A stretch of DNA of 64,000 bases from the NCBI GenBank assembly GCA_026398135.1, contig JAPLTN010000003.1:1-64000 (forward strand). Reading direction: 5' to 3'. Origin of the DNA: Verrucomicrobiota bacterium. Lineage in GTDB: Bacteria; Verrucomicrobiota; Verrucomicrobiia; Opitutales; Opitutaceae. How positions within the stretch are numbered: position 1 is the stretch's first letter; each line of letters begins with the position of its first letter. Shown here one piece after another: positions 980-57,503 of the stretch. The notes beneath the pieces were generated by a model, which did no database searches, was not told where the DNA came from, and worked only from the letters and a program-made list of their open reading frames with translations. The position numbers and the translations under genes were made by a program.

Positions 980-992
980 ACGCGGGGTGGGT

Positions 993-1805: not shown

Positions 1806-1852
1806 GGGCGGAGACGCGGGACGGTACGGGAGGCGAAGTGGCCGCCGCAGAT

Positions 1853-3358: not shown

Positions 3359-3421
3359 GAGCGGGTGTAGCGGGGGGGGGGGAGCGTGTCGGGTCGGCCG
3401 GGCGGGCGGATACGACTCTCT

Positions 3422-4357: not shown

Positions 4358-4521
4358 ACGGGAGGACTAGGGCATGAGTGGCTTTGCTGGCAAGGCGGGA
4401 AATTAACCTAGCATGGAAACTGCTATGGCGAGTTCGTGCCGCCTGAATTTGCTTACGCTAACGGTGAAGCTTGTTACGGGGGCAGGGTTGACATGCCGGG
4501 TGCGCTGCGGAGTTTGCAGGC

Positions 4522-4839: not shown

Positions 4840-4951
4840 AAATTAAAGCAACGGATGGTGAAGCGCTAAAAGACGCCAAACCTCTCTGAATCAGGCAATA
4901 GTGGGTATTATCAGGGCGGTCAAACGGCAGGATCCGGTTAAATCCACGCGT

Positions 4952-9594: not shown

Positions 9595-9635
9595 GCCAGT
9601 CAGCCACGGGCGTAACGCCTGAGGCTAAAAACAAA

Positions 9636-9669
9636 GCCGCCCGCCCTCGAAAGAGGCGGGCGGCTTTTT
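9636..9669 (+). terminator. Rho-independent terminator after rpsA
   Basis: The ten-base stem GCCGCCCGCC (9636-9645) / GGCGGGCGGC (9655-9664) is followed by TTTTT (9665-9669). It lies 41 bp after the rpsA stop. On the other strand it is preceded by A-rich sequence (CTAAAAACAAA), so it may also serve the minus-strand tRNA-Arg transcript. Confidence 0.9.
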
Positions 9670-9725
9670 CGTTTTTCGCGATTCAGAAGCAAAGCTGAAG
9701 CGAGCTGAGATGCGGTGTTTTAAAG

Positions 9726-11293: not shown

Positions 11294-11348
11294 GGAGCTG
11301 GAATGGGGAGCAGGGTAAGCTAGTAAGCTGGTAGAGCTAGTAAACTAG
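11294..11348. repeat. AGCTAGTA-type short repeats between sugar transferase and glycosyltransferase genes
   Basis: The gap between the two genes is made of repeated short units (AGCTAGTA, AGCTGGTAG, AGCTAGTAA, ACTAG), plus one GAGCAGGG unit like the heptamer family described elsewhere. It starts right behind the ATG of the sugar transferase gene. No other feature is seen in it. Confidence 0.55.
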
Positions 11349-12175: not shown

Positions 12176-13611
12176 GCGGCGCGGGAGCGGGCGGAGACAG
12201 CGGGTGAGAGCTGGAGGATACGGATCCCGGAGAAGAAAAGTATCCACCAGAGGGCGACGACGGCGGGGTTGGCGAAGGGGAACTCGACCCAGGCGTAGAG
12301 CGCAATCAGGGCGCAGCCGGTGAACAGGCCGCCGGGCAGGGCGGTGAGGCGACGGAGACGAACGGTTTCGGCAAGGGGCAGGAGCACGCAGAGCAAAAGC
12401 AGGCCGGTGCCGACAAAACCAAGCTCGGCGAGGGATTGCAGCCAGTCGGAGTGGGCATCCTCGAAGGTGTTCATGAGCCGGTCGGGGCCGGGGCGGAAAC
12501 GGGAGTAGTTGAGGAAAATGGGGCCGTAGGAGTCGAGTCCCCAGCCGAATGCGGGGCGGTCGGCGGCCATGCGCCAGGTGTCGGCGTAGAGATCGGCGCG
12601 GGTGTAGCCGTCCGGCCCGGAGCGAAGGTGGGCGATTTGTTCCAGGGTTTGCGTGAAGCGTAGCTGGATAACCTCGCGACTTTGGAAAAAAACAAGTCCG
12701 CCCAGGGTAACGAAGAGGGCGAGCAGGCCGACGATGAGCGACGCGCGGAGCGGTTGATGACGATTCCGGTGTCGGGTGCGGAAGTGGTGGCGCAGGGAGG
12801 CCGCGCCGGCGGAAATGGCGAGCAGGGCCATTAACACGGTGGCGGAGCGCGAGCTGGAGAGGGGGGCGGTGGCGGCGACGAGGATGGAGGTTAAGGTGAG
12901 CAAGGGGCCGGGGCCGTGAAACCAGCCGTTGTCCGGGGGGTAACGCAGAGAATGAAAGACGAGGCCGAGGGTGGAGGCGGTGCTCAGCACGGCGAAGGCC
13001 CCCCAGTGGTTATGGTAGAGGAAGGTGGCGAACCAGGCGGGGTTGTGAGAGGTGACAAAACCGAAGTAGGGGCCGGGGGCGAGTGCCTGGTGTTGCAAGG
13101 TGCCGAGCACGGCGAGGACGAGGGCGTTGAAGGCAAGCAGGAGAATGAGGCTGCGCAGGAGCCGTCGGGAATAGATGCAAAAGGCGAGGGTGAGGCCGGT
13201 GGCGGCGAGTCCTCCGAAGCAGGCAAGCACGCGCAGACTGGCGAGGGGAAGGGCGGATGCGGGCAACCACTCGACGTGAGCCACGGGGCGCAGCACGTAG
13301 GTGTTGAAGAGAAAGGCGGGGCGGTGGGAGGGGTTGAGCGCGCTGATGATTATGAAAACGGCGAGCGCCAGGAGAGGGGCGGTCCAGCGGAGCAGGCGGC
13401 GGAGGCCGGCCCGGTCGTGGTGGCGGAGGCGGTACCGGGCTTCGGCGAAGAGAAAATAATAAGCGGGGGCGGCGAGGGCGGCGATCACCCATTCGAGCCG
13501 GGGACCGATGCCGCCGAGCAACCAGGCGGAGACGAGGGCAACGAGGGCGACGTGGGCGACCACGAGTTTTTCCCGCTGGATTACCCGGGAGGAGGCGGAA
13601 GGGTTAACCAC
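12154..13611 (-). CDS. O-antigen ligase/polymerase-like membrane protein (Wzy/WaaL family)
   Basis: A 485-aa integral membrane protein with about 11 hydrophobic segments. The long periplasmic loop before the last segments holds RADLYADTWRMAADRPAFGWGLDSYGPIF and EDAHSDWLQSLAELGFVG, the pattern of the Wzy_C/O-antigen ligase family (the histidine of D-A-H-x-x-x-L is conserved). It either polymerises lipid-linked repeats or ligates glycan to an acceptor on the periplasmic side. Start is probably GTG 13611. A second polymerase-like protein is at 18619-20037, so one of the two may be a ligase. Confidence 0.85.
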   Translation of the reverse strand: MVNPSASSRVIQREKLVVAHVALVALVSAWLLGGIGPRLEWVIAALAAPAYYFLFAEARYRLRHHDRAGLRRLLRWTAPLLALAVFIIISALNPSHRPAFLFNTYVLRPVAHVEWLPASALPLASLRVLACFGGLAATGLTLAFCIYSRRLLRSLILLLAFNALVLAVLGTLQHQALAPGPYFGFVTSHNPAWFATFLYHNHWGAFAVLSTASTLGLVFHSLRYPPDNGWFHGPGPLLTLTSILVAATAPLSSSRSATVLMALLAISAGAASLRHHFRTRHRNRHQPLRASLIVGLLALFVTLGGLVFFQSREVIQLRFTQTLEQIAHLRSGPDGYTRADLYADTWRMAADRPAFGWGLDSYGPIFLNYSRFRPGPDRLMNTFEDAHSDWLQSLAELGFVGTGLLLLCVLLPLAETVRLRRLTALPGGLFTGCALIALYAWVEFPFANPAVVALWWILFFSGIRILQLSPAVSARSRAACSPSSS

Positions 13612-13626
13612 GATGCGAAGCGAGGT

Positions 13627-14793
13627 TCAGGTCGTCGGGCGGGCAGGCAGTTGACTGTAGAAACTCAGCAGGTTTTGAGCCGCGAATTTCCACGTGTAGT
13701 TTGCCAAAACCCAGGACCGGCCGTTGCCGCCCAGGGTGGCGAGATCGGGGGCGGGGGCGGCGAGGAGGGCGGCGAGGGCGGCGGGGTAGTCGGCCCAGGG
13801 GACGCAGCGGCCGGCGGAAGCGGCGTCGAGGCCCCGCCAGGGCAGGGTGTCGGTGACGAGCGCGGGCAGGCCGGCGGCGAGGGCTTCGGCCACGGCCTGG
13901 CCGAAATTTTCCGAGTGCGAGGGGAGGAGGAAAAGTTCGGCCAGCGGATAGGGCGCGGGCAGGCCGGCGCCGTCGGCGACCACGATGGGGGAGGTGGCGG
14001 AGGCGGGGGCGAGGGCTCGGAGTTGAGCGACGGTGTAATCGCCGGGGATGCCGGCGAGCAGAAGGGTCCAGCCGGGGCGGGGGACTGAGCGCCAGAGCGA
14101 GATGAGCTCGGCGACGCGTTTTTTACGGTGGAGGCGTCCGTAGAAAAGGGCGATGCGGGTGTTTTTTAACTGCGGGTGGGCGGCGGGCCAGGCGGCGCGG
14201 GCGGCGGAGACGCCACCGGGCGCGGGGGCGCTGACACCATTGGGGGCGATGCAGGTGGGAGCCGGGAGCGGCGGGCCGGGGGCGTGAAGCCAGGGGGGGA
14301 GCTGGGTGAGGTTTTCGGCTTCCTGCGGGCTGGTGGCGTGCCAGCCGGAAACGGCGGAGAGGGCGCGTGAGTGTATGAAGGAAGCGGCGACGCGTTTTTT
14401 CCAGGTGTGGTGGGCGAGTGCCCAGGGCTCGAGCATGCCGCGCGGGGCGACCACCAGGGGGATGCGGTGGTGGACGGCGGCGGCGGCGGCGTGGTAAAGG
14501 GGGCGTTGCCAGAGTCCGTGGACGTGGATGGCACGGGCGGGGGTGTGGTGGAGAAATTCGGCCAGTCCGGAGGCGCAGGCGCAGATCCGGCCGAGCGGTC
14601 CTGGACGGGCGGGGAAAGCGTGAACGGGAAGGTGGGGGTGACGGGTCGGGAAATCGGGTGGTATCGGACCTACGGTGACGAGATTAACGTAGGCGCCGAG
14701 CTCGGCCTGGGCGGCGGCGAGGGCGGGCACGGTGCGCGACGGGCCGCCGTGACGAGGATCGAGACTGGCGGTGACATGAAGGACATCGAGCAT
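13627..14793 (-). CDS. Glycosyltransferase family 4 (GT-B)
   Basis: A 388-aa retaining GT-B glycosyltransferase, MLDVLHVTASLDPRHGGPS at the N-terminus. The C-terminal nucleotide-sugar domain has IALFYGRLHRKKRV and the E-x7-E type motif LLPSHSENFGQAVAEALAAGLP. It adds one sugar to a lipid-linked intermediate at the cytoplasmic face. ATG 14793 is used because the in-frame extension upstream translates the heptamer repeat and intergenic DNA. It is 16 bp downstream of the previous gene in the operon. Confidence 0.88.
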   Translation of the reverse strand: MLDVLHVTASLDPRHGGPSRTVPALAAAQAELGAYVNLVTVGPIPPDFPTRHPHLPVHAFPARPGPLGRICACASGLAEFLHHTPARAIHVHGLWQRPLYHAAAAAVHHRIPLVVAPRGMLEPWALAHHTWKKRVAASFIHSRALSAVSGWHATSPQEAENLTQLPPWLHAPGPPLPAPTCIAPNGVSAPAPGGVSAARAAWPAAHPQLKNTRIALFYGRLHRKKRVAELISLWRSVPRPGWTLLLAGIPGDYTVAQLRALAPASATSPIVVADGAGLPAPYPLAELFLLPSHSENFGQAVAEALAAGLPALVTDTLPWRGLDAASAGRCVPWADYPAALAALLAAPAPDLATLGGNGRSWVLANYTWKFAAQNLLSFYSQLPARPTT

Positions 14794-14809
14794 GGTGGTT
14801 TGGCGCGGG

Positions 14810-14830
14810 GAGCTAGGAGCAGGGAGCGGG
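14810..14830. repeat. Heptanucleotide repeat, three units
   Basis: GAGCTAG, GAGCAGG, GAGCGGG in 7-bp register, 16 bp behind the start of the glycosyltransferase gene at 13627-14793. Confidence 0.8.
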
Positions 14831-14840
14831 GAGGACTGAG

Positions 14841-15413
14841 TCAGGTGGGGTCGGGGCGGGGTTTGAGGGGGCGGCAGGGGTGGCCGGCGCAGACCATGCG
14901 GGCGGGTTGATCGGAGACGACGACGGAGCGGGCACCAATAACACAAAGTTCGCCGATGGTGACGTCGGGGCCGACGAAGACCTCGGCGGCGAGCCAGGCG
15001 TTGGGGCCGACCTCGATGGGCGCGGTGGTCAGCGGCATGGACCAGCGGGTGTAGTCGTGGGAGCCAGAGCAGAGGTGGACTCCCTGGGAGAGGTTGGCGC
15101 CGCGCCGGAGGGTGACGGGGCCGAGATTGTAGATGTTCACCTTACGGCCGATCATGGAGCGGGGTTCGAGCCGGAGTTTCCACGGGAAGAAGACGCGGGC
15201 GGAGGCAAAAACAACGACTTGAGCGGGGGCGGGGATATCGGCGCCGAAGCAGCGGAGGAGCCGGGCGCGAAAGCCGTGGGCGCGGGGGAGGCTGAAGCGA
15301 AAAAGGGTGGCTTGAACGACGGACCAGAGACGTTGGCGGATAAGCTCGGAGCGCGGGTAGGGGGTGACGCAGCCTTGGGCGAGGTAGGGGGGCTCGGGGG
15401 CGGCGGGGGGCAT
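14841..15413 (-). CDS. WcaF-type hexapeptide acetyltransferase
   Basis: A 190-aa left-handed beta-helix acetyltransferase. After a helix-rich N-terminus (RQRLWSVVQATLFRFSLPRAHGFRARLL) come hexapeptide repeats such as IGRKVNIYNLGPVTLRRGANLSQ, the catalytic-type histidine in GSHDYTRWSMPL, and IEVGPNAWLAAEVFVGPDVTIG. The closest match I know is the colanic-acid acetyltransferase WcaF. It O-acetylates a sugar of the growing polysaccharide with acetyl-CoA. The start is ATG 15413; a longer frame upstream is the shadow of the neighbouring glycosyltransferase. Confidence 0.85.
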   Translation of the reverse strand: MPPAAPEPPYLAQGCVTPYPRSELIRQRLWSVVQATLFRFSLPRAHGFRARLLRCFGADIPAPAQVVVFASARVFFPWKLRLEPRSMIGRKVNIYNLGPVTLRRGANLSQGVHLCSGSHDYTRWSMPLTTAPIEVGPNAWLAAEVFVGPDVTIGELCVIGARSVVVSDQPARMVCAGHPCRPLKPRPDPT

Positions 15414-46671: not shown

Positions 46672-46746
46672 GCGGGCATAGTATACCGGCTATTATGTGT
46701 GCTTCCCAAGCATGAGAAGAGGGTTCGACTCCCTCTGCCCGCACCA
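46672..46746 (+). tRNA. tRNA-Gly (anticodon CCC), integration site
   Basis: Acceptor stem GCGGGCA/TGCCCGC, T-arm GAGGG-TTCGACT-CCCTC and anticodon loop TTCCCAA (anticodon CCC) form a regular cloverleaf, with the CCA end encoded. Its 3' half is the left attachment site of the 9.1-kb element, and the same sequence recurs at 55796-55831. The tRNA remains complete after integration. Confidence 0.93.
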
Positions 46747-46755
46747 ACTTTTACC
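46720..46755 (+). repeat. attL: 36-bp direct repeat at the tRNA-Gly 3' end
   Basis: Starts AGGGTTCGACTCCCTCTG and runs through the CCA end and nine bases beyond the tRNA. It is identical, base for base, to 55796-55831. The integrase-like gene begins 53 bp further on, the usual arrangement for tyrosine-integrase islands. Confidence 0.92.
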
Positions 46756-46779
46756 TCTGAAGCGGGAAAGCAAACAGCA

Positions 46780-46804
46780 GATTTGCCAGTTTACGTGGCA
46801 AATC
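46780..46804 (+). promoter_or_regulatory. Palindrome in front of the integrase gene
   Basis: GATTTGCCA (46780-46788) and TGGCAAATC (46796-46804) are perfect 9-bp inverted arms around a 7-base loop, ending 4 bp before the integrase ATG. No T-run follows. An operator or an RNA hairpin that hides the start region is more likely than a terminator. Confidence 0.6.
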
Positions 46805-46808
46805 TTAC

Positions 46809-47957
46809 ATGGCCCAGGACTCTACGTTCGTCATTCCCGAATTCACGAATCCATCAGGAGAAATTGTTTTTCGCCTTTTTGGTTGGCTCGACGGTAAGCG
46901 CATCCGCAAAAATTTTCCGACTCGCGCCGAGGCAGTCGCCGAGCGCCAAGCCCTGGAAATCAGCCTTGTTCAGGCCCAGTCCAGCGTTCGCACTGCCATT
47001 ACTCGACTGACAGATAGCCAGCTCCACGATGCCGAGGTTGCTTTCAGCCGTCTCGGTAATGCGCCTAAATCTTTGGCTTTTTACGGCGAATACGCACTCG
47101 CCAACTATCGCGCCCCCGAGCGTGAAATTACGGTTGAGACAGCCGCCACGACCTACCTTGCGACCAAGCAAACAGCGTATGGGCGTGGGCTGGTTTCAGG
47201 GTGCCAGCTCAAGGACATCCGCATCCGACTCGTAACCTTGAAAAAGGCATTTCCCGGCAAGGTGCTCTCTCAGCTCACCCGCGAAGCGCTCGCCGCGCAT
47301 TGCCAGCAGGGCAACCCGAAGCCTAAGACGTTTAACAACCGGCGCGGTGTGCTCTTCACGTTCTTTAAATTCGCGTTCTATCAAGACTGGGTCGCCGCCA
47401 ATCCGCTCGATAAAGTCCCTCATCTGCGCATCGCCTATCGACGCGGCTCCGCCAAGACCTTGACCGCCGAGCAGGCCGAAAAACTCATGCGCCACATCGA
47501 GACCTTCGAGGGCGGGGTGTTCGTTACGTATTTCAGCCTCTGCCTGTTTGCCGGCATTCGCCCGAGCATTCTCGTTGGTGAAATCTCCAAGCTCCAGCCC
47601 GATAGCATTAACTTGGATACCGGCGTGATTCATATCGAGCACGAGGTCTCTAAGGTCCGTATGAAGCGCAACGTCACGATACTGCCCAACCTCGACGCCT
47701 GGCTGCGCGCTTATGCTTTGCTTGCCGCAGGCTATCTCGACCGCGACGCCTCTCGCTATGTTTCGCCAGGATATGCCGTGCGTCGTGCGGACACCTTTCG
47801 TGTAAATGCAGCCTTTCCCCGCGTTATCGAAGCCAGCCTGCCCTTAGGTGTCGGCTCCGTCTCATACGACCTTAGTCTCGCCGCTTGTGCTGTATTCGCG
47901 GTGGCACCGGCAGATTTACAGACAGTCCTCTCTTCCACGTTCGAACCCGCCATTTAA
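46809..47957 (+). CDS. Tyrosine integrase-like protein, C-terminal catalytic box missing
   Basis: A 382-aa protein. The N-terminus (SGEIVFRLFGWLDGKRIRKNFPTRAEA) is an arm/core-binding region as in phage-type integrases, then a SAM-like core domain (~100-210, with NRRGVLFTFFKFAFYQDWV) and the start of the catalytic domain: CLFAGIRPS gives the first catalytic arginine, and HEVSKVRMKRNVTILPNL the lysine region. The expected H-x-x-R and terminal tyrosine are absent; after residue ~300 the sequence (ending APADLQTVLSSTFEPAI) is unlike the family and other frames do not restore it. Position beside attL fits an integrase, but it is probably inactive. Confidence 0.75.
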   Translation: MAQDSTFVIPEFTNPSGEIVFRLFGWLDGKRIRKNFPTRAEAVAERQALEISLVQAQSSVRTAITRLTDSQLHDAEVAFSRLGNAPKSLAFYGEYALANYRAPEREITVETAATTYLATKQTAYGRGLVSGCQLKDIRIRLVTLKKAFPGKVLSQLTREALAAHCQQGNPKPKTFNNRRGVLFTFFKFAFYQDWVAANPLDKVPHLRIAYRRGSAKTLTAEQAEKLMRHIETFEGGVFVTYFSLCLFAGIRPSILVGEISKLQPDSINLDTGVIHIEHEVSKVRMKRNVTILPNLDAWLRAYALLAAGYLDRDASRYVSPGYAVRRADTFRVNAAFPRVIEASLPLGVGSVSYDLSLAACAVFAVAPADLQTVLSSTFEPAI

Positions 47958-47963
47958 CTTTTC

Positions 47964-48320
47964 ATGCTTACCCTCGAACAATTCGCCCAAGAGGTGAAAT
48001 CCGATGTCCGTCAGCGCATCGAACCCGCCACCGGCACGCCAAAGCTCTCGGAAGAGGCGTTCACGGACTTTGCCATCGAACGACTCGTGGAGCGCAACGA
48101 GGCGCTCGACCACGAACTCTGCCCGGATCAGTGGCCGGCCCGTGGCGCAAAAAATCCGGCGGCGCAAGTCAGCGCCTGGCACCTCTCCGACGACGGTGCC
48201 CGTCTCGATCTCTTTATTACGGAATATCGCGACGAGGATACGCCACCTGTCGTCGCTCGCGCGGAAGCGGATCAGCTTTTTAAGAAACTGCGCGGATTAC
48301 TTCCGCCCCTTACCGCTTGA
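47964..48320 (+). pseudogene. Truncated AIPR-like (abortive-infection phage resistance) gene, N-terminal fragment
   Basis: 118 codons starting MLTLEQFAQEVKSDV. The segment WHLSDDGARLDLFITEYRDED followed by ARAEADQLFKKL resembles the first ~110 residues of AIPR-family proteins, which are normally 500-700 aa. The frame then stops and the DNA continues with a small minus-strand gene. It begins 7 bp after the integrase-like stop. Most likely the remainder of a phage-defence gene whose body has been deleted; the family call is from memory of the N-terminal pattern and moderate. Confidence 0.5.
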
Positions 48321-48473
48321 TTTTACGGACGCCCAGCGCGCTTCCGCCGCTTTTTTCGCCGCGTCACTTCGCTTCTTCGCACTGACGCCCTTCCAGCGAG
48401 ACTTTCCTGCTTTCGCCTGCTGAAGGGCTGGCGCATCCCATTCATGGCCGCACTTCGGGCATGTGTGCTTCAA
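48297..48473 (-). CDS. Small zinc-ribbon protein (58 aa)
   Basis: A short gene. It starts at TTG 48473, overlapping the TGA stop of the gene upstream (TTGA), with GGAGGA six bases before. The protein begins with a CPKCGHEW zinc-knuckle half, followed by a Lys/Ala-rich helix RWKGVSAKKRSDAAKKAAEA and a basic tail. It overlaps the 3' end of the AIPR fragment on the other strand by 24 bp. One C-x2-C pair alone may bind metal as a dimer. Function unknown; similar small proteins with the KKAAEARW end occur on mobile elements. Confidence 0.6.
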   Translation of the reverse strand: MKHTCPKCGHEWDAPALQQAKAGKSRWKGVSAKKRSDAAKKAAEARWASVKSSGKGRK

Positions 48474-48763
48474 CGCACATCCTCCGAGATCGGCACGACC
48501 TTCAGCGGCACTTTTAGCACCGCCTCAAAATAGCGGCGCTTCATTTCCTCATTATCACGCCCATCGTAGATTTCGGCCTCTTCAAGCGGAACGAGGGTGG
48601 CGGTCAGCCCTCGAAGTCCCACGGCGCGGGCGTCGTCGGTTGCCAAAAACCACTGCACACCGGCCAGCGCCTTCGCGCGTGCCCGTGATCCGGGTTTTGT
48701 ATCGCCGCTTACCACATCCGAAATCCGCTCCCTTACTTCATCCGCGCCAGTGTCAGTTTTCAT
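48470..48763 (-). CDS. Hypothetical protein (97 aa)
   Basis: ATG 48763 gives MKTDTGADEVRERISDVVSG; TTG 48769 is an alternative. No recognised domain. It is mixed alpha/beta in appearance (VQWFLATDDARAVGLRGL, then LKVVPISEDVR), acidic at the start and soluble. It is coupled to the 58-aa zinc-ribbon gene by a four-base overlap, which supports that both are real genes of one operon. It diverges from the RES toxin gene. No function is assigned. Confidence 0.55.
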   Translation of the reverse strand: MKTDTGADEVRERISDVVSGDTKPGSRARAKALAGVQWFLATDDARAVGLRGLTATLVPLEEAEIYDGRDNEEMKRRYFEAVLKVPLKVVPISEDVR

Positions 48764-48905
48764 TTCCAAAAGCTATGCAAGCGCGCTTGCATGAAAAGCC
48801 TGTATTTGCGCTTGGCGGATGAATTTATGGGCAATGGAAAGCCATGCGAATCGCCATTTTTTCATCGCTCAAACGACTGTCGTCCGCCTGCTTTTGCGGT
48901 ATTCC

Positions 48906-49511
48906 GTGAAACTCCCGGCCCCATCGCCCAATCCCCGCTACGGTGACCTCCGCTCGACCCTCGCGGCGCACCCCGAGTGGCTGTCCCCGTGGAGCGGCCA
49001 CTTTTTCCGGTTTCAAACCATCCAGTTCCCCGCCGCCAAAGACATTCTTTCCGGCACTGGTGCCAAGCAACGAGGCGGGCGCTGGAATCCTCCCGGCCTT
49101 GCCGCACTCTACGGAAGCACGACCGATACCGCCGCCTTGGAAGAGGCCAAGGCCAACGACCGCTACTATGGTCTCGAAACCAAGACTCCCCGGCTCGTCG
49201 TCGCCATCCAGGCCAAGGTCGGCAAAATACTCGATCTCACTTCCCCCGGCATCCGTCGCCATCTCGGCATCACCCTTGCCGAACTCTCCGGAGAGGACTG
49301 GCGCAAGCTCCTTCAGTCCGGCCAGGAAAGCCTGTCTCAGACCCTCGGACGCGCTGCCGCCTCCACCGGCGCTTCCGGCCTACTCGTTCGCTCCGCCGCT
49401 GTGCATCAGGCCCGCAACGTCATCCTGTTCCCGCCCCTCGGCGGTTCCGACCGCCTATCCATCATCGAGGGTGATGCTCTCGCCCGCCTCACCGCCGGAA
49501 AGAAACCTTGA
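48906..49511 (+). CDS. RES-domain toxin
   Basis: A ~201-aa RES (R-E-S) protein. FFRFQTIQFP, the G-x-R-W-N-P-P-G loop (GGRWNPPGLAALYGSTTDTAALEE, split around residues 50-75) and a serine in VRSAAVHQARNVILFP match the NAD-degrading toxin family of RES-Xre systems. GTG 48906 is preferred; ATG 48819 is in frame but adds a leader not typical of the family. The cognate DUF2384 protein follows 34 bp downstream. Expected effect is NAD+ depletion when freed from its partner. Confidence 0.85.
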   Translation: MKLPAPSPNPRYGDLRSTLAAHPEWLSPWSGHFFRFQTIQFPAAKDILSGTGAKQRGGRWNPPGLAALYGSTTDTAALEEAKANDRYYGLETKTPRLVVAIQAKVGKILDLTSPGIRRHLGITLAELSGEDWRKLLQSGQESLSQTLGRAAASTGASGLLVRSAAVHQARNVILFPPLGGSDRLSIIEGDALARLTAGKKP

Positions 49512-49545
49512 AACATGCATAATTGCAGGTTTTAGTGCAGGCATA

Positions 49546-49959
49546 ATGAGCACGCTTAACCGACGCCCCAAAACCGCCAAGGCACCCAAGGTCGCCCTCG
49601 TCGCCTTCCGTTTCAAGCACCGTGGCGCGACTGATTACGCCGGCTTGCTTAAAACCTACCGTGCCGAGTTTCACGTCACCCAAGCGCAGCTTGTCCGCCT
49701 CACCGGTTTCTCGCCTCGCTCGGTCGCCAAATGGAGCCAGGGGGAAACGCCTTCGCCGAAACAGGAAAAGGCCTTGGTCGAGATGGATCGTTTGTTTGAC
49801 GGCCTCGCCCGCGTGATCGAACCGGCGCAAGTCGGCCGTTGGCTCACGCACCCCAATCCCGCCTTCGACGGCTCGACACCCTTGCAGGTGGTGGAACGCG
49901 GCGAACTGGATCGCATCTGGCGCATGCTTTACGACCTCGAATCCGGCCAGCCGGGTTGA
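49546..49959 (+). CDS. Xre/MbcA/ParS-type antitoxin (DUF2384)
   Basis: A 137-aa protein. The first part is a helix-turn-helix (FHVTQAQLVRLTGFSPRSVAKWSQG, ~residues 42-66); the C-terminal ~55 residues have the DUF2384 toxin-binding pattern with VGRWLTHPNPAFDGSTPLQ. The gene starts at ATG 49546, deep inside a longer open frame that is only the shadow of the toxin gene. Direct repeats of GCATAAT and GCAGG lie between toxin and antitoxin (49518-49547) and may be its operator. Here the antitoxin follows the toxin; the usual order in RES-Xre systems is the reverse. Confidence 0.83.
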   Translation: MSTLNRRPKTAKAPKVALVAFRFKHRGATDYAGLLKTYRAEFHVTQAQLVRLTGFSPRSVAKWSQGETPSPKQEKALVEMDRLFDGLARVIEPAQVGRWLTHPNPAFDGSTPLQVVERGELDRIWRMLYDLESGQPG

Positions 49960-49986
49960 GTGCCGTCAGCATGTCGCCGGTAAAGC

Positions 49987-50787
49987 TTGAACCCCAGCAA
50001 CCAGGGCGCTCAGCCCTGCTGTCGGCTTTGTGGCCAGAGCAGGCCACTATGCCGATCACACATCTACCCTAAGTTTACCTTCAAACGCATGAAGGCCGCC
50101 GATGGAACCTTTATGCGCTTCGAGGGCAGTAGGCGCGGCTGGCTTCCGCGTCCGCTCCAAGATGATTGCGTGGAGCATCTGCTCTGCGGCGACTGCGAAC
50201 ACCGACTTCACAAATGGGAGAATTCTGTCGCCCGGTTTTTAGCTGGGGGGCTTTTAGATAACCTCACCCCGGCCCCCGGAAAGCATTACACGTTCGTCAA
50301 TCTGCCCGATTACACGACGGTTAAGCTCTACCTGTTATCATTGCTATGGCGCTGTCATGCAGCGCGTGCGCCAGCGTTTCGCTTCGTTGATCTCGGCCCA
50401 ATGCACGACGCTCGATTGCGTGAGATGCTTCTCACTGGTGCCCCCGGAGAACCATGGGAATACGGCTGCTTCATTTCCACGGTTCATCTGAATCTGGACG
50501 ATGGTAAATTCGACCGCCCTCCTATCGGTTTCATGCCGGAGGCGATGAGGTTCGAAGGCGAGCATGGCCTTCATATCGTTAGAAAGGTGATCGATGGTAT
50601 CGTGCTTCATTTTGTTATCGGCAGCCCTGAGCGCATGAAGGCATGGCGAGGAGGCCCGATGTTTCCTCAACGGGATGGGCGCACGGTCGTCGGAGTAGAT
50701 GACGGCATGAACATGCCCTTTTTTCGTGATCAGCTCAGATATGTTTTCGAATGCGAAAACCCGGTCTGGGAACGACGCTCGCCGTAG
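49987..50787 (+). CDS. HNH-like zinc-binding protein, function unknown
   Basis: A 266-aa protein starting at TTG 49987 (no other start keeps the N-terminal motif; an in-frame stop lies just upstream). CRLCGQSRPLCRSHIYPKF has the C-x2-C ... S-H-x-x-P-K arrangement of an HNH-like family, and HLLCGDCEHRLHKWEN supplies the second C-x2-C. The rest is rich in aromatic residues. Proteins of this type occur scattered on mobile elements and in defence islands, but a nuclease role here is only an inference. Confidence 0.6.
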   Translation: MNPSNQGAQPCCRLCGQSRPLCRSHIYPKFTFKRMKAADGTFMRFEGSRRGWLPRPLQDDCVEHLLCGDCEHRLHKWENSVARFLAGGLLDNLTPAPGKHYTFVNLPDYTTVKLYLLSLLWRCHAARAPAFRFVDLGPMHDARLREMLLTGAPGEPWEYGCFISTVHLNLDDGKFDRPPIGFMPEAMRFEGEHGLHIVRKVIDGIVLHFVIGSPERMKAWRGGPMFPQRDGRTVVGVDDGMNMPFFRDQLRYVFECENPVWERRSP

Positions 50788-51092
50788 GCTCGAATTCTTC
50801 GTGCGTGGCCGTGCCCCAGAGGGTGCCTTTAGGGTAGCACCTGCGACGGCTGGCGGTCTCCGCGCTGCGCACTCCGCCCGTCCACGCCTCTAGGTGTTGC
50901 TCGCTGGCGGGCGCTGGCGGCTACGCCGTCCCACGTCCCGTCCCGCTGCGCTCCACCTTGCGCAGCCGGTGCTTCCCGTCGGCATCCCTCGGGGGCGGCC
51001 GTTTTTTCGGTTTGGCCATCTGAGGGCTCCGCGTAGCGCGGCCCCGCTACTCCCATCCGCGCTCTCGTTGGGGCGCTCTCCTCTGACATCCC
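50788..51092. other. Gene-free stretch in the element
   Basis: About 305 bp without a gene I can support. A 32-codon frame on the minus strand (50921-51019, MAKPKKRPPPRDADGK at the start) is Lys/Arg-rich and might be a small basic peptide, but has no clear ribosome binding site. The rest is GC-rich with several short inverted repeats. Confidence 0.35.
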
Positions 51093-51541
51093 ATGCGTGA
51101 CATCTCCCGTGATCCTACACCTCAGCCCGGCGACCAGATCCACCAGCCCGGCCACCCGTTCGACGGCTTCACCGTCATCAGCGTTTACACCCGCGCCCAG
51201 GCCATCGCCGACGGCGTCCTTGCCGACGCCTCCACCGGAGACCTCGCCGAGGTCTCAGCCCAGCATTTCCCCGGCGTTCACGTCGCCATGACGGCGGCGG
51301 TCTTCGCCCTCATCGAGCAGGCGGTCGCGAGCCCGAAGCACGCGAACGACTGCCGTGGCGTCTGGCATGACATCCTCCACATGTCCCGAGCTGCCCCGTG
51401 CGCGTCTGGCAGGGTGGGCGCCTGTTCCGCGTCATCATCACTGGCACCGGCCGCAAGCGCCTGCACACCTTGAAGGCCATTTCCCACCCCGACGAGACCG
51501 GCCGCCCCTGCCTCACGATCATGCTTCCTGACGAGGACTGA
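51093..51541 (+). pseudogene. DUF6573-like gene with a frameshift
   Basis: The first ~100 codons (ATG 51093) encode the DUF6573-type segment FTVISVYTRAQAIADGVLAD and end near GVWHDILHMS (~51385). The family's C-terminal part is found in another frame: RVWQGGRLFRVIITGTGRKR and later CLTIMLPDED, stopping at 51539-51541. One base appears to be missing between ~51385 and ~51412. DUF6573 genes are common on conjugative and mobilisable elements. A good terminator follows, so the locus was once a normal gene. Confidence 0.7.
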
Positions 51542-51553
51542 TCGACGCCCCCC

Positions 51554-51586
51554 AGCCCCGCCGCCACCTAGCGAGCGGGGCTTTTT
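51554..51586 (+). terminator. Rho-independent terminator after the DUF6573 gene
   Basis: AGCCCCGC (51554-51561) pairs with GCGGGGCT (51575-51582), followed by TTTTT. It begins 12 bp after the DUF6573 stop at 51541. The convergent recombinase operon ends at 51738. Confidence 0.85.
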
Positions 51587-51737
51587 CGATTCTAAAAATG
51601 GAATCACCCGACCACGAAAGAACGGTGTTTCACCAAGCCTCGCGGCCTCGTGCCCATATTCGCCTCGCGGCTTTGGTCGTTACGGCGTCCGGGTGCCAGC
51701 CCACTTGTTTCCGATGCGGTTGCAGTCGGGTGAAAAA

Positions 51738-52619
51738 TCAAAGCGCCTCCAACGCGGCCAATTCTTGGAGTTCTTCTAGAATCTCGGGATGCCGTTGGTT
51801 CAGGAAGCGCTTCACCTTGGCGTTTTCTAGTAGCCGGCGCACGTAACGCTGAGCCGAGCCGAGGTGGAGCGTGTTCTCGCCGTAGCGTTCCTCGAACAGC
51901 CTGTAGTCGCGCTCGAGCGCTTCCATCTCCCGCTCCATGCGGGCCACGTCCTCGGCCGCGACGCCACGCATCTTTTTCGGTTCGTCCGGCTTCACCATGT
52001 GCCCGCGGTTGGTGCCGACTAGCAACGCGCGGGCGTAGGAAAACGTGTAGTTGTTCCCGCTCACCATGAGCTGGGCCATTTCGATTTGGCGGAGCGCCTT
52101 CACGTGTTTGAGCACCGTCAGCGCCCGCTCCGTGATCGGCTTGTCTTTTAAGAGCTGCACCGCCTCCGGATGGATGCCTTCGAGCATCTTCTTTCGCGAC
52201 ATCACCGTCCGGATGTCTATGTCGAGCGCCTTGGCGATCTCCTCCTCCGTCACGCCGCCATCTAGCGCTTTAAGGATCATGCGGTGTTCTTGAATCAGCG
52301 AGAGCCCGCTGATTTTGTCGTTGTAGGTGAACGCGTCGTCTTCCGTGGACACCAGGCAAAGCGCCTTCTCCGCCCCGATCTCTTGTAGCGCCTTCAAGCG
52401 CATGTGCCCGTCGAGAAGTAGGTAGGTGCCCTTCGCGGCGCGGTTTGGATAGACCACCATCGGCTCGACCAACCCGACGGAGCGGATCGAGGCCAGCACG
52501 GCGCGGTATTTCCCAAAACAGCCGTCTGTCGCCTTCACCTGGCGGATCGGCAGGAGAGCCGTCAATGGCAGCTCGACCGCCTGTTTTTCAAACCCGATGC
52601 GAACTCGTTTCATGCTCAT
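51738..52619 (-). CDS. ParB/RepB-like protein (RepB C-terminal domain type)
   Basis: A 293-aa protein. The N-terminal ParB/Srx-like domain has LLPIRQVKATDGCFGKYRAV and YLLLDGHMRLKALQEIG (~68-84); an HTH follows (EEIAKALDIDIRTVMSRKKML), then IHPEAVQLLKDKPITERAL as in plasmid RepB proteins. The end, KRFLNQRHPEILEELQEL, recurs almost unchanged in the recombinase two genes upstream. ATG 52619 overlaps the TGA of the preceding gene (ATGA). No ParA ATPase is present, so a role in DNA partition is unlikely; a DNA-binding partner of the recombinase is an inference. Confidence 0.82.
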   Translation of the reverse strand: MSMKRVRIGFEKQAVELPLTALLPIRQVKATDGCFGKYRAVLASIRSVGLVEPMVVYPNRAAKGTYLLLDGHMRLKALQEIGAEKALCLVSTEDDAFTYNDKISGLSLIQEHRMILKALDGGVTEEEIAKALDIDIRTVMSRKKMLEGIHPEAVQLLKDKPITERALTVLKHVKALRQIEMAQLMVSGNNYTFSYARALLVGTNRGHMVKPDEPKKMRGVAAEDVARMEREMEALERDYRLFEERYGENTLHLGSAQRYVRRLLENAKVKRFLNQRHPEILEELQELAALEAL

Positions 52620-53503
52620 GAAGCCTCCTGCACCCGTTCGACGATGAACTTCGGGAGCGTTTGCAGATCCTCCGCGCGCAACAGCGTCGCGAAGTTTTCG
52701 TCCGCGAGCAGCGCCTTGAACGCAGCCGTAAGTGACAACAGCCGCGACTCCGCCGCCTGCGCCTTCCGCACCATCAATTTTTGCCGCTGAGTCTCGCGCT
52801 TGTAGGCGAGGATCAGGCCGTCCGCGCTGGTGCGCTTACGTGCCCGATGAGCCTCCTTTGAATAGCCCCGCCCGAAGCTCTTTCGTTGATCGATAAGTTT
52901 CCGAAAGCGGGACAGCGTCGCCTGCTTCATTTCATTCCGCTCGTAGGCTTCGAGCAGGATTCGCTGGCTCGCCTCGTCATCCAGCCCGGAGATGCTGACC
53001 GCTATTGTGATAGGCAGCCGACCATGCAGCACCGCGTCGAGGACGCGCTCCTCGCCCTGCCGGAGCAATTTCAAGATGCCTTGGAGGTAGTGCTCGGCGA
53101 GGCCCGTCTTGCGGGCGATCTCTTCGAGCGAGTTGCCCTGTTCCTGCATCCATTGAATCAGGCGTATTTGATCAATCGCCCGCACGCGCCGGCGGGCGAT
53201 ATTTTCCACGAGACTCGCGATCAGGCTGTCCGTCTTCGTGAGCTTCCGCACAAAGGCCGGGATTTCGGCTTGGCCAAGCGCCTGAAACGCTTCGAGCCGA
53301 CCTTGGCCGCAAACTAGATCATAGGTCGCCGCGCCCTCAGCGTCCGGCTGGCCCTCCGTGACGGTGATCGGCCGCTTCAACCCGACCGCCTCGATGTTCT
53401 TTACGATGCGCTCAAAATGCTTTCGGTCGCGCACTCGCGGATTCGGCACTCGCACAGCCTTGACCGGCACCATCACCACCTCGCGTTCGTCGCTTTTTTT
53501 CAT
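52616..53503 (-). CDS. ParB N-terminal domain protein
   Basis: A 295-aa protein (ATG 53503; an earlier in-frame start reads through the recombinase gene). The ParB/Srx domain shows YDLVCGQGRLEAFQALG and SLVENIARRRVRAIDQIRL, and an HTH-like stretch NSLEEIARKTGLAEHYLQGIL. The C-terminal ~100 residues are basic and helical, ending EDLQTLPKFIVERVQ. Its start overlaps the recombinase stop by four bases and its stop overlaps the next start in the same way, so three proteins are made from one coupled message. Confidence 0.82.
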   Translation of the reverse strand: MKKSDEREVVMVPVKAVRVPNPRVRDRKHFERIVKNIEAVGLKRPITVTEGQPDAEGAATYDLVCGQGRLEAFQALGQAEIPAFVRKLTKTDSLIASLVENIARRRVRAIDQIRLIQWMQEQGNSLEEIARKTGLAEHYLQGILKLLRQGEERVLDAVLHGRLPITIAVSISGLDDEASQRILLEAYERNEMKQATLSRFRKLIDQRKSFGRGYSKEAHRARKRTSADGLILAYKRETQRQKLMVRKAQAAESRLLSLTAAFKALLADENFATLLRAEDLQTLPKFIVERVQEAS

Positions 53504-55065
53504 GCGACCTCCTCGATGGAAACCCGCTCTGCGAGCGAGTAAAAGAACTCCAGATCGTCGAAGCGGTAGGCGTCTAGTAGGGCGTCGTTGCACTCCGCGA
53601 GCCGTAGCCGCAGCGCCAGTTGGTCGAGCGAAGGGAAGAGGTAGTAATCTTTGATGCCTTGGTTCGTCTCATCCATGCGCGCGACAATGGTGATGTCCGG
53701 CCGGTGGCTTTCCTCAAACCGCACGAGCCACCGCGGCGAGCCCGCGTCCGTGCGCAAGCACCGCGACAGCACGAGCGAGACGACCAACTCTTGGTCCAGG
53801 ACGAGAAGCTCCGTCTCCGGGTCGCGCTGCACCTGCACCCCGATCCCGGCCAGGTTGGAAATCACCTCTTGCACGATCTCCGGATGCTTCTGGCGTAGGA
53901 AGCGGTTAACCTCGATGAAGCTCATGTTCGTCTCCGGCACATAACCGATAAGCTGATAAGCACGCACAAGGCTGCCGAAGCGGCTGCGAAAGACCGAGCT
54001 GGAGGGCAGGTCTTCGCGCTCGTCGATGATGACGCCTGAGAGCCGCCCATGCTGCCGCAGAACGTCACGCAACTTTTCGAGCATCTCCTCGTCGGTGTAG
54101 CGCTTGGCGCGGGCGATGATGATTTCCTGCGCCTTCGTGAAGTCCTCCGGCGTCACGATTGCGGGGAATGCGCCCGGCACGCGGATCCACATGTCCGGCG
54201 GGTTTTGGACGTGCTTTCGTTTCAGCTTAAACGAAGTGCGGTGATAGACGTTGTTGCCGAGGTATTTTTCGTTCGTCAGGAGTTGATGCACCGTGCCCCG
54301 CGTCCATTCGCGCCCGAGATCGGTCTTGAGCCCGCGTGCGTTCAGCCGCTCCGCGATCTCCCGCTCCGTCAGCCCCTCGTCGAGAAAAGCGCGATAAACC
54401 CCGCGCACCGTTTCGACCTCCTCCTCCGGCCCGAGCGTGAGGACGACGCGATCCGTCTGGAGGCTCTTGTGTTCGCCGACCGCGAGCACGCCTTTGTGAT
54501 TCCCGGCCTGATCGACCAGCATCCGCCGCAGCCCGTAGCCGGCCGTCCCGCCCTGCTTGAACCCCATCTGAATCAGGCGACAGGCCCCTTGAAAAACCTT
54601 GGTCGAGAGTTCCCGGCTATACTCGCCGGCCATCGACCGTTTCACGCTCTTGATGATGTTCGAGGTGGGGGAGCCATCGTTTTCGAACTGCTCTGCGCAG
54701 TAGTGGACGGCTATGCCCGCGCGCTTGCAGATGTATTCGTAATACCCGCTCTCGTCCGCGTCCTGGAACCGCCCCCACCGGCTGACATCGTAGGCGAGGA
54801 TGCACTTGAAGTCGGCGTTACCGCCTTCGACTTCGGCGATCATCTTTTTCAGGCTCTCGCGGCCGCGCACGTTGAGACCGCTTTTGCCCGAGTTCTCGAA
54901 CACGCGCACGATCTCCATGCCCCGGCGCGCGGCATATTCCTTGATCCGGTCGAGTTGGTTCTCGGTGGAATACTGCTGATGTTCCGTGGACATGCGGACG
55001 TAGGCCGCCGCAGGGATCGCGGCGGCGTCCGGCTTCGGGAGCGGGAGTTGGGTCGGCCCGCTCAT
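53500..55065 (-). CDS. Large serine recombinase
   Basis: A ~521-aa recombinase. The catalytic domain begins AAYVRMSTEHQQYSTENQ with nucleophile S26, and includes VFENSGKSGLNVRGR and LAYDVSRWGRFQDADESGYY with the active-site arginines. The 'recombinase' DNA-binding domain lies at ~180-290 (LTEREIAERLNARGLKTDLG). The C-terminal ~200 residues lack the usual coiled-coil and contain NRFLRQKHPEIVQEVISNL, a motif shared with the RepB-like partner. ATG 55065 is chosen over TTG 55074. It could move the element or invert DNA, but its sites are unknown. Confidence 0.92.
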   Translation of the reverse strand: MSGPTQLPLPKPDAAAIPAAAYVRMSTEHQQYSTENQLDRIKEYAARRGMEIVRVFENSGKSGLNVRGRESLKKMIAEVEGGNADFKCILAYDVSRWGRFQDADESGYYEYICKRAGIAVHYCAEQFENDGSPTSNIIKSVKRSMAGEYSRELSTKVFQGACRLIQMGFKQGGTAGYGLRRMLVDQAGNHKGVLAVGEHKSLQTDRVVLTLGPEEEVETVRGVYRAFLDEGLTEREIAERLNARGLKTDLGREWTRGTVHQLLTNEKYLGNNVYHRTSFKLKRKHVQNPPDMWIRVPGAFPAIVTPEDFTKAQEIIIARAKRYTDEEMLEKLRDVLRQHGRLSGVIIDEREDLPSSSVFRSRFGSLVRAYQLIGYVPETNMSFIEVNRFLRQKHPEIVQEVISNLAGIGVQVQRDPETELLVLDQELVVSLVLSRCLRTDAGSPRWLVRFEESHRPDITIVARMDETNQGIKDYYLFPSLDQLALRLRLAECNDALLDAYRFDDLEFFYSLAERVSIEEVA

Positions 55066-55083
55066 TACGCGCAAGCGGCAGGG

Positions 55084-55606
55084 TTAGCGAGGGGCCGGCG
55101 GTCGCGAGGCGTCTCCGTTAAGGTAGTGAGTTTCGAGGGCAGCGAGGATGGCATTTCCCTCGACCATGATCTCGCGGAAGTCGCGCGCGATGGTCTCTTG
55201 TAACGCAGAGCCCCGCAGCCACGCAATGAGCCCGAGCAGGCCGGCGAGATACGGTGGCCAGGAATCTTGTAACGCACGGCAGGAATCTTGTAACGCAAGT
55301 TCCCTGAGCACGGCGGAGAGATCAGGCGCGGGGCAGGTTTCGGAGCTCCGTTTCTTTCGCCGCCAGTAGCCCGGATTGGCCTGACGCCACTCCCGAACAC
55401 GTTCGGCCGAGATCGGGCCGTCGTAGTAGGAGCCGTTGCCGGTGTTCTTCATCCACCGGGTTTGGCTCTCCCGTTTGCTGCGTTTTCGGCAGGAGGGTTT
55501 GGAGCAAAACCGCTGGCGACCGGCGGCCCGAGGTTCAGGAATAAACGGCAGGCCGCAGGCGGCGCACCGTGGTTGATCGGAGGTTTTTTTTGTGTGATGA
55601 TTTCAC
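55084..55606 (-). pseudogene. Zinc-ribbon protein gene upstream of the recombinase, probable frameshift at an A8 run
   Basis: The frame ending at 55084 encodes a zinc-ribbon start (CAACGLPFIPEPRAAGRQRF, then CSKPSCRKRSKRES) followed by RVREWRQANPGYWRRKKR, the pattern of a conserved protein I remember next to such recombinases. In that frame there is no start codon upstream of the ribbon. A GTG at 55604-55606 begins a frame that joins it only if the A8 run (plus strand T8, 55584-55591) is read as seven. Either the gene has a one-base expansion, or the run allows slippage. The first in-frame ATG (55452) would lose the ribbon. Confidence 0.6.
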
Positions 55607-55795
55607 GCCTTCCAGCCCGCACGCCGCGTGCCGATTTTCGAGCCGATCCGAGGCCCAAAAATTTGCCAGAGATTTGTCAGCCGATACGTTTTTTGCTTCA
55701 CTTCTCCAGTATTTCGCTCACACTAATTCTCGTTTTAAACTACTAACCCACAACATAAAGCACACTAAACGAAGGCTTTCTTTTGTTTGCCTAAA

Positions 55796-55831
55796 AGGGT
55801 TCGACTCCCTCTGCCCGCACCAACTTTTACC
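55796..55831 (+). repeat. attR: 36-bp direct repeat
   Basis: An exact copy of 46720-46755: the 3' part of tRNA-Gly from the T-arm through CCA plus nine bases. It marks the right end of the element, 88 bp before murJ. Confidence 0.92.
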
Positions 55832-55919
55832 GGCAGGAAATGTACAGGCTGAAGTGAAGTGGAGACACCCGCAGGCTTGTAACACCGTTTTGGGGCGGTG
55901 ACGGTGTCGCGAAATCTAT

Positions 55920-57503
55920 ATGGGCAAAGCGCTGCGCAACATCGGTATCGTGTCGGGGCTGACCATGGTCTCGCGCGTGCTCGGGCTGGGGCGCGAGATG
56001 GCGATTGCGGCGGCCTTCGGGGCCACCGCGCTGGGCTCGGCGTTCGCCACTGCGTTTACCCTGCCGAATCTGTTCCGGCGTTTGCTGGGTGAGGGCGCGC
56101 TGACCGCCGCGTTGGTGCCCACCTTGCAGGAGGAGACGGCGCGGGGGGGCGAGGCGGCGGCCTTGCGTCTGGTGAGCGAGGTGGCGACGTGGACCTTGCT
56201 GGCGGCGGGCTTGATCACGGCGGCGGCGATGGTGTTGCTCGGCGCGCATGTGTGGTGGGGACCGCAGTTGCTGGCGTGGGGTTGGGAGGCGGATACGGTG
56301 GCGCGCTGGGAACTGGGGGCGGAGTTGGGCGTGGTGCTGTTCCCGTATATGGTGACGGTGTGTCTGGCGGCGGTATTTAGCGCGGCCTTGCAGACGCGCG
56401 GGCGTTTCTTGGAGCCGGCGCTTAACCCGGTGTGGTTGAATCTGTGCATGGTCGGCCTGCTGGGCTACGGCGTGTGGAGCGCGCCGGGGGACGATGCGGT
56501 GCGCATGCGCTGGTTGTGCGCCGGGGTGCTGGCGGGCGGAGTGGCGCAGATGCTGGGGCCGGCGTGGGCCTTGATGCGCTTGGGATGGTCGCCGCGCTGG
56601 TCGCCGCAGGCGGGCCCGGGCGTGAGGCAGATCGCGCGGTTGATGGTGCCGACGCTTTTCGGCTCGGCCATTTACCTGGTGAACATGACGGTTTCGCGCT
56701 TGCTGGGGCTGTCGCTCGATGACGCGGCGGCGACGGTGTTGAATCTTTCCACGCGAGTGATGGAGCTGCCGATCGGGGTGTTTGCGGTGGCGATCACCAC
56801 GGTGGTTTTCCAGCAAATCTCTAAACATGCGGCGGAGGGGCGGCTGGATCTTCTGGCGGTGGATTACCGCAAGGGCATGCGGCTGATTTTACTGGTGAAT
56901 GTGCCGGCGGCGGCGGGGCTCGTGGTATTGGCGGAGCCGATCACGCGGGTGCTTTTTGAGCGGGGAAAATTCACGGCGGCGAACACGTTGACCATGGCGC
57001 CGGTGCTGGCGGTCGGGGCGCTGGCCTTGCCCGCGCTGGCGTTCGTGGGACTGGCTTTGCGGGCGTTTTATGCGCGCAAGGACATGCGCACGCCGGTGCG
57101 GGCGGCGGCGTGGAGTTTTGTCATCAACGTGGTGGCGAGCGTGGTGCTGATGCGCTGGTTTGGGGTGACCGGACTGGCGGCGGGTTCGACTGTGGCGGTG
57201 TTGTTTCAGGCCGGGTTTTTGCAGGCAAAACTCGCACGTGAACATGAGGGGCTGGGCTTCTCCCATCTGGCCGGGCATCTGGCAAAAGTGGCCGCGGCAA
57301 GCGCGGTGATGGGCGGGGTCGTTGCCTTGGCGTGGTGGGGGTGGCGTCAGGGAATGGGGACGGGCAGCGGGCGCGATCTGGCCGGGCTGACGTTGAGCGT
57401 GGCGGCGGGCGTGGCGACCTTCGGCGCGGCGGCGTGGGGCTTGCGCCTGGAGGGGCGGGACGAGGTGCTGGCGCTCGTGAAGCGGAAACTGAAACGCCAG
57501 TAA
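55920..57503 (+). CDS. murJ: Lipid II flippase MurJ
   Basis: A 527-aa protein with ~14 membrane segments. N-terminal GLTMVSRVLGLGREMAIAAA and FRRLLGEGALTAALVPTL are the MurJ/MviN signature (with the conserved arginines). Cytoplasmic membrane protein that moves lipid II outward for peptidoglycan synthesis. It begins right after the right end of the integrated element; a hairpin ACACCGT/ACGGTGT lies at 55882-55907. It converges on hflX. Confidence 0.95.
   Translation: MGKALRNIGIVSGLTMVSRVLGLGREMAIAAAFGATALGSAFATAFTLPNLFRRLLGEGALTAALVPTLQEETARGGEAAALRLVSEVATWTLLAAGLITAAAMVLLGAHVWWGPQLLAWGWEADTVARWELGAELGVVLFPYMVTVCLAAVFSAALQTRGRFLEPALNPVWLNLCMVGLLGYGVWSAPGDDAVRMRWLCAGVLAGGVAQMLGPAWALMRLGWSPRWSPQAGPGVRQIARLMVPTLFGSAIYLVNMTVSRLLGLSLDDAAATVLNLSTRVMELPIGVFAVAITTVVFQQISKHAAEGRLDLLAVDYRKGMRLILLVNVPAAAGLVVLAEPITRVLFERGKFTAANTLTMAPVLAVGALALPALAFVGLALRAFYARKDMRTPVRAAAWSFVINVVASVVLMRWFGVTGLAAGSTVAVLFQAGFLQAKLAREHEGLGFSHLAGHLAKVAAASAVMGGVVALAWWGWRQGMGTGSGRDLAGLTLSVAAGVATFGAAAWGLRLEGRDEVLALVKRKLKRQ

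Follow-up and report, generated by a model that had tools for sequence, protein, structure and literature searches.

A serine recombinase gene conserved with two ParB/RepB-type partners, a candidate mobile module of plasmids, islands and viral contigs

What do two ParB-type proteins do beside a serine recombinase? The question is raised by a stretch of 64,000 nucleotides from a Verrucomicrobiota bacterium of the family Opitutaceae (assembly GCA_026398135.1, contig JAPLTN010000003.1, positions 1 to 64,000; hereafter the window), in which the gene of a serine recombinase is directly followed by the genes of two different ParB/RepB proteins, named RepB1 and RepB2 here. An original prediction, made from the letters of the window, had put the set forward as a candidate for an undescribed system. 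We find that this trio recurs as a unit in many bacteria, and we give about an even chance to the reading that it is a compact integration/excision module of ~4 kb, with the two ParB-type proteins building the synapse or determining the direction of recombination. The features of the window copy are as follows, CTP standing for cytidine triphosphate and ORF for open reading frame.

53500-55065, minus strand: serine recombinase of the large-serine-recombinase type, 521 amino acids, with an N-terminal catalytic domain (Pfam and conserved residues)
52616-53503, minus strand: RepB1, of the ParB/RepB type, carrying the two CTP-clamp-type motifs GxGR and ENxxR
51738-52619, minus strand: RepB2, of a second RepB family, with DGHxR kept and ENxxR mostly absent
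51617-51714, minus strand: structured RNA, conserved among relatives, downstream of the stop codon of RepB2 (alignment A1, 16 sequences)
55084-55606, minus strand: zinc-ribbon ORF, in the +1 frame from GTG 55606-55604 and behind a run of eight A's (A8) at 55591-55584
55190-55207, 55259-55276 and 55280-55297, minus strand: triplet of direct repeats around TGCGTTACAAGA that lies within the zinc-ribbon ORF, candidate binding sites
51576-55811, minus strand: approximate extent of the module, from DNA homology with the relatives L153 and L154

A genome-wide scan for RepB2 returned 67 loci, and in 57 of them recombinase, RepB1 and RepB2 are adjacent and in this order; of the remaining ten, six lie on contigs too short to judge and four have room yet miss at least one gene. 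The association of both ParB-like genes with the recombinase, proposed from this one locus, thus holds in a survey of neighbourhoods. The nearest named relatives are Opitutus and Opitutae records. Among 250 genomes of the window's family, 22 carry the recombinase at E ≤1e-80 (seven of them with two matches, some partial), and 26 loci fetched from these genomes, some of which repeat loci of the first scan, contain the full trio in 21 cases, at least two of the other five stopping at a contig edge. Across 85 complete sets the intergenic gaps range from -32 to +52 bp; the exception is L099, where RepB1 and RepB2 form one fused ORF (7942-9723) in a record that is filed as a Lactiplantibacillus plasmid and that we suspect to be mislabelled or a contaminant sequence. 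In the window, ATGA overlaps couple the recombinase to RepB1 (53500-53503) and RepB1 to RepB2 (52616-52619), as had been pointed out, although the fixed proportion of products read from them does not follow from overlaps alone. The set is conserved across phyla, and the DNA that carries it in many bacteria includes plasmids, islands and viral contigs, which bears out the original statement that similar sets occur on mobile DNA. In six loci (L058, L068, L079, L080, L083 and L086) an extra segment that looks like a recombinase N-terminus lies upstream of the set.

The three proteins also vary together. In a tree of 88 RepB proteins, RepB1 and RepB2 form separate clades, each with a support of 100/100, whose subgroups are visibly parallel, and the pairwise distances at 44 loci correlate with r 0.88 between RepB1 and RepB2 and with r 0.72 and 0.73 between the recombinase and the RepB proteins, values equalled in none of 2000 permutations. 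Host kinship accounts for part of this correlation. RepB1 and RepB2 are two old, distinct families evolving in step.

In Pfam the recombinase matches PF00239 (E 4.8e-21) and PF07508 (E 7.7e-25), and its residues R24, S26, R96 and R99, which we take to be catalytic by analogy with the resolvases, are invariant in all 46 sequences. Among PHROG families it hits the integrases of phrog_95 (E 6.2e-59). No zinc-ribbon family was found in it among Pfam hits up to E 0.1, and two CxnC pairs within residues 216-420 occur in only one of the 85 loci, a test that covers Pfam families and cysteine pairs. A search with Foldseek of the recombinase model (mean predicted local distance difference test score, pLDDT, 77.5; a second model has 77.4, and both are of medium confidence) gave serine integrase-DNA complexes as top matches, at template-modelling (TM) scores of just 0.2-0.4, which are low and uninformative on the C-terminal part. 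RepB1 has PF07506 and PF02195, retains GxGR and ENxxR in 85 of 85 loci, and aligns with structures of Spo0J, Noc and ParB (E down to 1.4e-19), KorB being also among the matches. RepB2 has PF07506 (E 7.5e-41) with a sub-threshold ParB_N match, and retains DGHxR in 84 of the 85 loci and ENxxR in just four. Relatives of both sit in PHROG families of unknown function (phrog_3951 and phrog_31451), so that pieces of the module have already been catalogued.

The comparison of DNA flanks reveals a discrete unit, with sharp limits of homology in most of the pairs compared. Among the Opitutaceae pairs listed, homology extends, with few exceptions, at most from about -550 upstream to about 100-170 bases past RepB2; in the close pair L153-L154 it reaches -830. 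Where two proteobacterial loci are 80% identical or more, the left limit falls between about -390 and -1,475 with differing flanks and the right limit mostly between +43 and +231, and some pairs lose homology within the trio genes. In Agrobacterium a 3.9-kb unit, 97% identical, is present on two plasmids at two different sites and is bracketed at each by direct repeats, which at neither site were equalled by any of 200 shuffles; two other plasmids have, after the same AbiEii gene, a single repeat motif without the unit. Direct repeats of 46 bases lie outside the unit in L033 and L035, and a scan of wider flanks found direct repeats of 370 bases (79%) in L058 (-796/+1277) and of 682 bases (76%) in L082 (-3050/+291). 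The surroundings are varied: on the Piscinibacter plasmid of L201, Tn7-like genes (TnsA, transposase, TniB and TniQ; 39-5384) end directly upstream of the set, in L191 TniQ/TniB genes flank it, and the copy of L046 lies within a chromosome record of 4.1 Mb.

Downstream of RepB2 there is a conserved structured RNA, present as a single copy in the window's genome, of which we distinguish an Opitutaceae version (16 sequences, columns 85% identical on average) and an alphaproteobacterial version (35 sequences, 86%). Both sides have changed in 5 of 22 pairs of the former and in 8 of 31 pairs of the latter, which in neither case was reached by any of 500 shuffles and is far above the slid controls; the count of further pair types was matched by 21 and 34 of 500 shuffles, respectively, and the measure of cells paired is biased towards these structures, which come from the same alignments. 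When 30 alphaproteobacterial loci are compared in pairs, identity averages 89% in the RNA, 62% in the RepB2 DNA and 55% in the RepB2 protein (first 108 RNA bases, both parts complete, the broken RNA of L080 excluded). At gathering score, Rfam recognised two tRNAs only in the window and nothing in six loci, and at a relaxed E-value its sole match was an unrelated one on the plus strand within the recombinase gene (E 0.27).

A model of the Opitutaceae version (R1) matched 11 of 20 genomes at E 0.001, with 16 matches. Two of these, both in genome G433 (L219 5955-6051 and L220 6353-6452), have no recombinase or RepB in the surrounding 9-11 kb and adjoin genes that read as AbiEi/AbiEii. With the second model (R2), 43 matches (E up to 1) turned up across 91 loci, and each of 11 genomes picked for holding the module was matched at least once; in L077 a second RNA copy (~4530-4858) stands behind an apparent remnant of the RepB2 tail, 2.7 kb downstream of the first. 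In several alphaproteobacterial loci a terminator-like hairpin follows the RNA and, where seen, is separate from it. Since several lineages match neither version the RNA is not universal, and it is a conserved part of the module in many lineages only.

Upstream of the recombinase, the original prediction had counted a zinc-ribbon protein into the system. Its reading frame (~55606-55084) is indeed kept in relatives; as a fixed partner it did not hold up, since in several proteobacterial loci an unrelated divergent gene occupies this position, and we regard it as a variable upstream partner of the trio. The frame has no start codon of its own: the A8 run begins 15 bases past the GTG at 55606, and the long zinc-ribbon frame is +1 relative to that start. 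In 15 of 23 Opitutaceae loci examined a start precedes a run of exactly eight A's by 15 or 16 bases and the longest frame is +1, a recurrence that points to programmed slippage; among the possible starts our script preferred the one with the longest run of A's and, next, the one with most gain of frame, which biases it to a shifted frame, but neither the constant +1 frame nor the run of exactly eight was imposed by it. The triplet of TGCGTTACAAGA-like repeats inside this ORF, with spacings of 21 and 69 bp, recurs in four other distinct modules, and pairs occur in others, while the Variovorax locus L202 has a different upstream triplet. By a 10-mer count, three upstream copies are found in Opitutaceae loci and L202 only, two-copy matches are at chance level, and the counts of upstream repeats in other groups are no better than chance. 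The leucine codon TTA within the repeats seems, by eye, unusual for such GC-rich DNA, which suggests that they may be under selection as DNA.

If these observations are read together as an integration/excision module, the serine recombinase would integrate and excise the DNA that carries it, either the bare module or a larger element downstream of RepB2. RepB1 would probably load as a CTP-dependent clamp at sites near the recombinase gene, for example the repeats of the upstream ORF, and RepB2, mostly without one of the CTP motifs, may bind a second site or RepB1 itself. Together they would assemble the synapse or choose between integration and excision, and so replace the work of the missing zinc-ribbon domain and of the directionality factor of ordinary large serine integrases. 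We infer active recombination. These roles of the pair seem the likeliest because RepB1 and RepB2 accompany the recombinase, evolve in step with it, and stand where other integrases have a zinc ribbon and a directionality factor. The RNA might control expression, act as a scaffold, or serve in site choice as a guide.

An alternative is that the ParB pair are regulators that keep down transcription of the recombinase operon or of adjacent defence genes, the recombinase working alone. KorB-like ParBs repress transcription, and both the KorB match of RepB1 and the repeats upstream of the recombinase are in favour of such a role. We nevertheless consider it unlikely, given that a protein complex would explain equally well, if not better, the strict trio, the fusion of RepB1 and RepB2 in one ORF and the co-evolution with the recombinase.

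We likewise doubt that the trio maintains plasmids or other elements, with the recombinase resolving dimers and the ParB pair stabilising the replicon without ParA. RepB is a family of plasmid partition, and 103 plasmid records match RepB2 (76 over at least 80% of its length), 68 of them called conjugative, 48 of them from Sinorhizobium. However, the ParA motif (K/R)GGxGK(S/T) is absent within 5 kb of the module in 85 of 85 complete loci, in agreement with what had been noted for the window, by a test that looks for the Walker motif only and ends where contigs end, so that divergent ParAs could escape it. Further, a plasmid can carry another ParB-family gene (L194 is an example), the Agrobacterium unit sits at two sites on such plasmids, and copies occur outside plasmids, in the chromosome record of L046 and in the window itself. 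The plasmid-maintenance option of the original prediction fails for the window copy, which serves no plasmid replicon and lies near murJ in a tRNA-Gly island with the following features.

46717-55831, no strand: enclosing tRNA-Gly island, ~9.1 kb, between 39-bp repeats (46717-46755 and 55793-55831, 97% identical)
46809-47957, plus strand: decayed tyrosine integrase, its C-terminal part lost and fused to a DUF4420/MzaD tail
48819-49959, plus strand: RES toxin (48819-49511) and Xre/MbcA antitoxin (49537-49959), island cargo

The 3' end of the tRNA-Gly gene (46672-46746) recurs at 55793-55831, and between the repeats lie the decayed integrase, the RES/Xre pair and the trio module; a relative of the Xre protein (73%) also adjoins the module in L154. 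The site beside murJ (46672-46755 and 55793-55920) is a hotspot for islands: the relative G294 has a different island in the same tRNA, with a decayed repeat and genes that read as type III restriction-modification, and G290 has yet another sequence to the left of the repeat. The left ends of the window copy, L153 and L154 abut three different tRNA 3' ends, which had suggested that the serine recombinase targets tRNA genes. We dropped this idea because tyrosine integrases related to the window's adjoin matching tRNA sequences elsewhere, in G443 one that is 53% identical, beside an intact tRNA-Glu 39.4 kb away, and in G493 one that is 64% identical, beside a matching tRNA-type 3' end; the tRNA-like ends are accordingly assigned to the tyrosine integrase. 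The island would thus be the work of that enzyme and the serine module its cargo near the far end. Among the loci scanned for an 11-mer of the T-arm, L093, L100 and the window have it no more than 800 bases from the unit, and L035 has it once, on the other strand. The fusion of the integrase to the DUF4420/MzaD tail may stem from a deletion that removed a defence locus.

Could the trio itself be a defence system that attacks or rearranges incoming DNA? The module often adjoins anti-phage defence genes, and its neighbourhoods are rich in them: at 1e-5, the 105 proteins taken from downstream of RepB2 matched 212 PADLOC families, whereas only 13 were matched by 94 control proteins from 20 arbitrary places in nine Opitutaceae genomes, a rough comparison that counts families rather than systems and in which the taxonomy of the two groups differs. 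The 105 are what is left of 115 proteins, picked up to a residue limit from 59 of 77 loci, after the removal of ten rows (those of the loci L040, L052, L061 and L156, plus a single row from L076 and another from L166), ten loci having been excluded earlier as duplicates or partial. The 25 families listed out of the 212 include WYL regulators (4 of the 105 proteins), restriction enzymes, BrxC, AbiEii, Fic, methyltransferases and helicases. In L039 a McrBC-like insert with 160-base direct repeats (11096-15139) stands between the unit and a WYL gene, and the same gene directly follows the unit in L038 and L040. Although these surroundings and the WYL genes would suit a defence function, we hold it to be highly improbable, as the limits of homology and the repeats resemble those of a mobile unit and the trio is found on viral contigs near tail genes as well. 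In IMG/VR there are 43 RepB2 loci, 27 of them also with recombinase and RepB1, and among 104 downstream proteins, drawn up to a residue limit from 27 of the 43, the commonest families are two of tail proteins, with 9 and 8 members, and that of tail fibre J, with 8. The contig starts inside the module in 20 of the 43, five of which are among the 27 full sets.

A bolder proposal is a ribonucleoprotein recombinase, in which the RNA and a RepB1-RepB2 clamp would choose or pair the sites and the RNA copies without a trio, beside the AbiE-like genes of G433, would mark cargo mobilised in trans; we regard it as a long shot. The least probable explanation, that of an ordinary phage-type serine integrase with passenger genes whose RNA is an elaborate terminator or untranslated region, would account for the phrog_95 match and the terminator-like hairpin, but a single gene order across phyla is hardly expected of passengers, and an RNA so much better conserved than RepB2 at the same 30 loci, with the hairpin separate where seen, argues against it.

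Several observations weigh against the integration/excision module that we prefer. Four scan loci miss one or more of the trio genes in spite of enough contig around them, and kilobases of common flank are shared in L051-L052-L061, L038-L040, L191-L193 and L194-L196. When 29 loci were tested for end repeats against shuffles, repeats unmatched by shuffles were found in only L093, L100, L033 and L035, the other 25 having no flanking repeat better than all shuffles. An empty site with joined flanks was not found for the P. aeruginosa plasmid or the Agrobacterium regions among the matches listed. The tRNA-like ends of the window, L153 and L154 fit the island family of the tyrosine integrase and not the serine recombinase, and since the limits of IMG/VR contigs are automatic or assembly ends, no attachment site can be read from them. 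Finally, neither RNA version was matched in Agrobacterium C58, in other rhizobial plasmids or in the beta- and gammaproteobacterial plasmids among the loci.

In the open literature of PubMed Central (PMC), as far as titles and the openings of abstracts go, we found no description of the trio or of the RNA. The original view of an undescribed system stands to that extent, and we regard the module as an undescribed form of serine-recombinase mobile module, with a small chance that the RNA makes it a wholly new kind. Serine integrases are valued as DNA-writing tools, and the control of their direction differs between elements. A recombinase family seemingly without a zinc ribbon and with two ParB-type partners would link CTP-clamp proteins to recombination, and the conserved RNA beside such an enzyme is a further puzzle of its own. 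The neighbouring genes hint at one way in which defence genes travel on plasmids, islands and phage-like elements, and records that name these genes plasmid partition proteins would be corrected.

Among the closest known systems, the large serine integrases (phiC31, Bxb1, SPbeta) share with its recombinase the N-terminal resolvase and PF07508 domains and provide the top Foldseek matches; the module recombinase, however, has no detected zinc ribbon and a different C-terminal part, and in complete sets it is adjoined by two ParB-type partners. CcrA, CcrB and CcrC, the recombinases that move the variable cargo of SCCmec, are serine recombinases too, and the module enzyme matches CcrB and CcrC weakly in NCBIfam, although far below the curated cut-offs (48.7 vs 900 bits); to our knowledge, SCC elements have no ParB partners. 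Both module partners are RepB-type (PF07506) as in RepABC partition (RepA-RepB-parS), whereas the module lacks a nearby ParA motif, has two RepB families and carries the recombinase in the place of ParA. RepB1, which aligns with Spo0J, Noc and ParB and keeps both motifs, is probably akin to the CTP clamps of the ParB/Noc/KorB group, unlike RepB2, with ENxxR in 4 of 85 loci only. IS607 has a serine catalytic domain that weakly matches the module recombinase, but in IS607 it stands behind a MerR-like domain and in the module enzyme it is N-terminal. IS110 elements are mobile elements with a structured bridge RNA beside their recombinase, and the module also has a structured RNA adjoining a recombinase; the latter is a serine enzyme and not a DEDD one, and a choice of sites by the module RNA would be an analogy with IS110 only.

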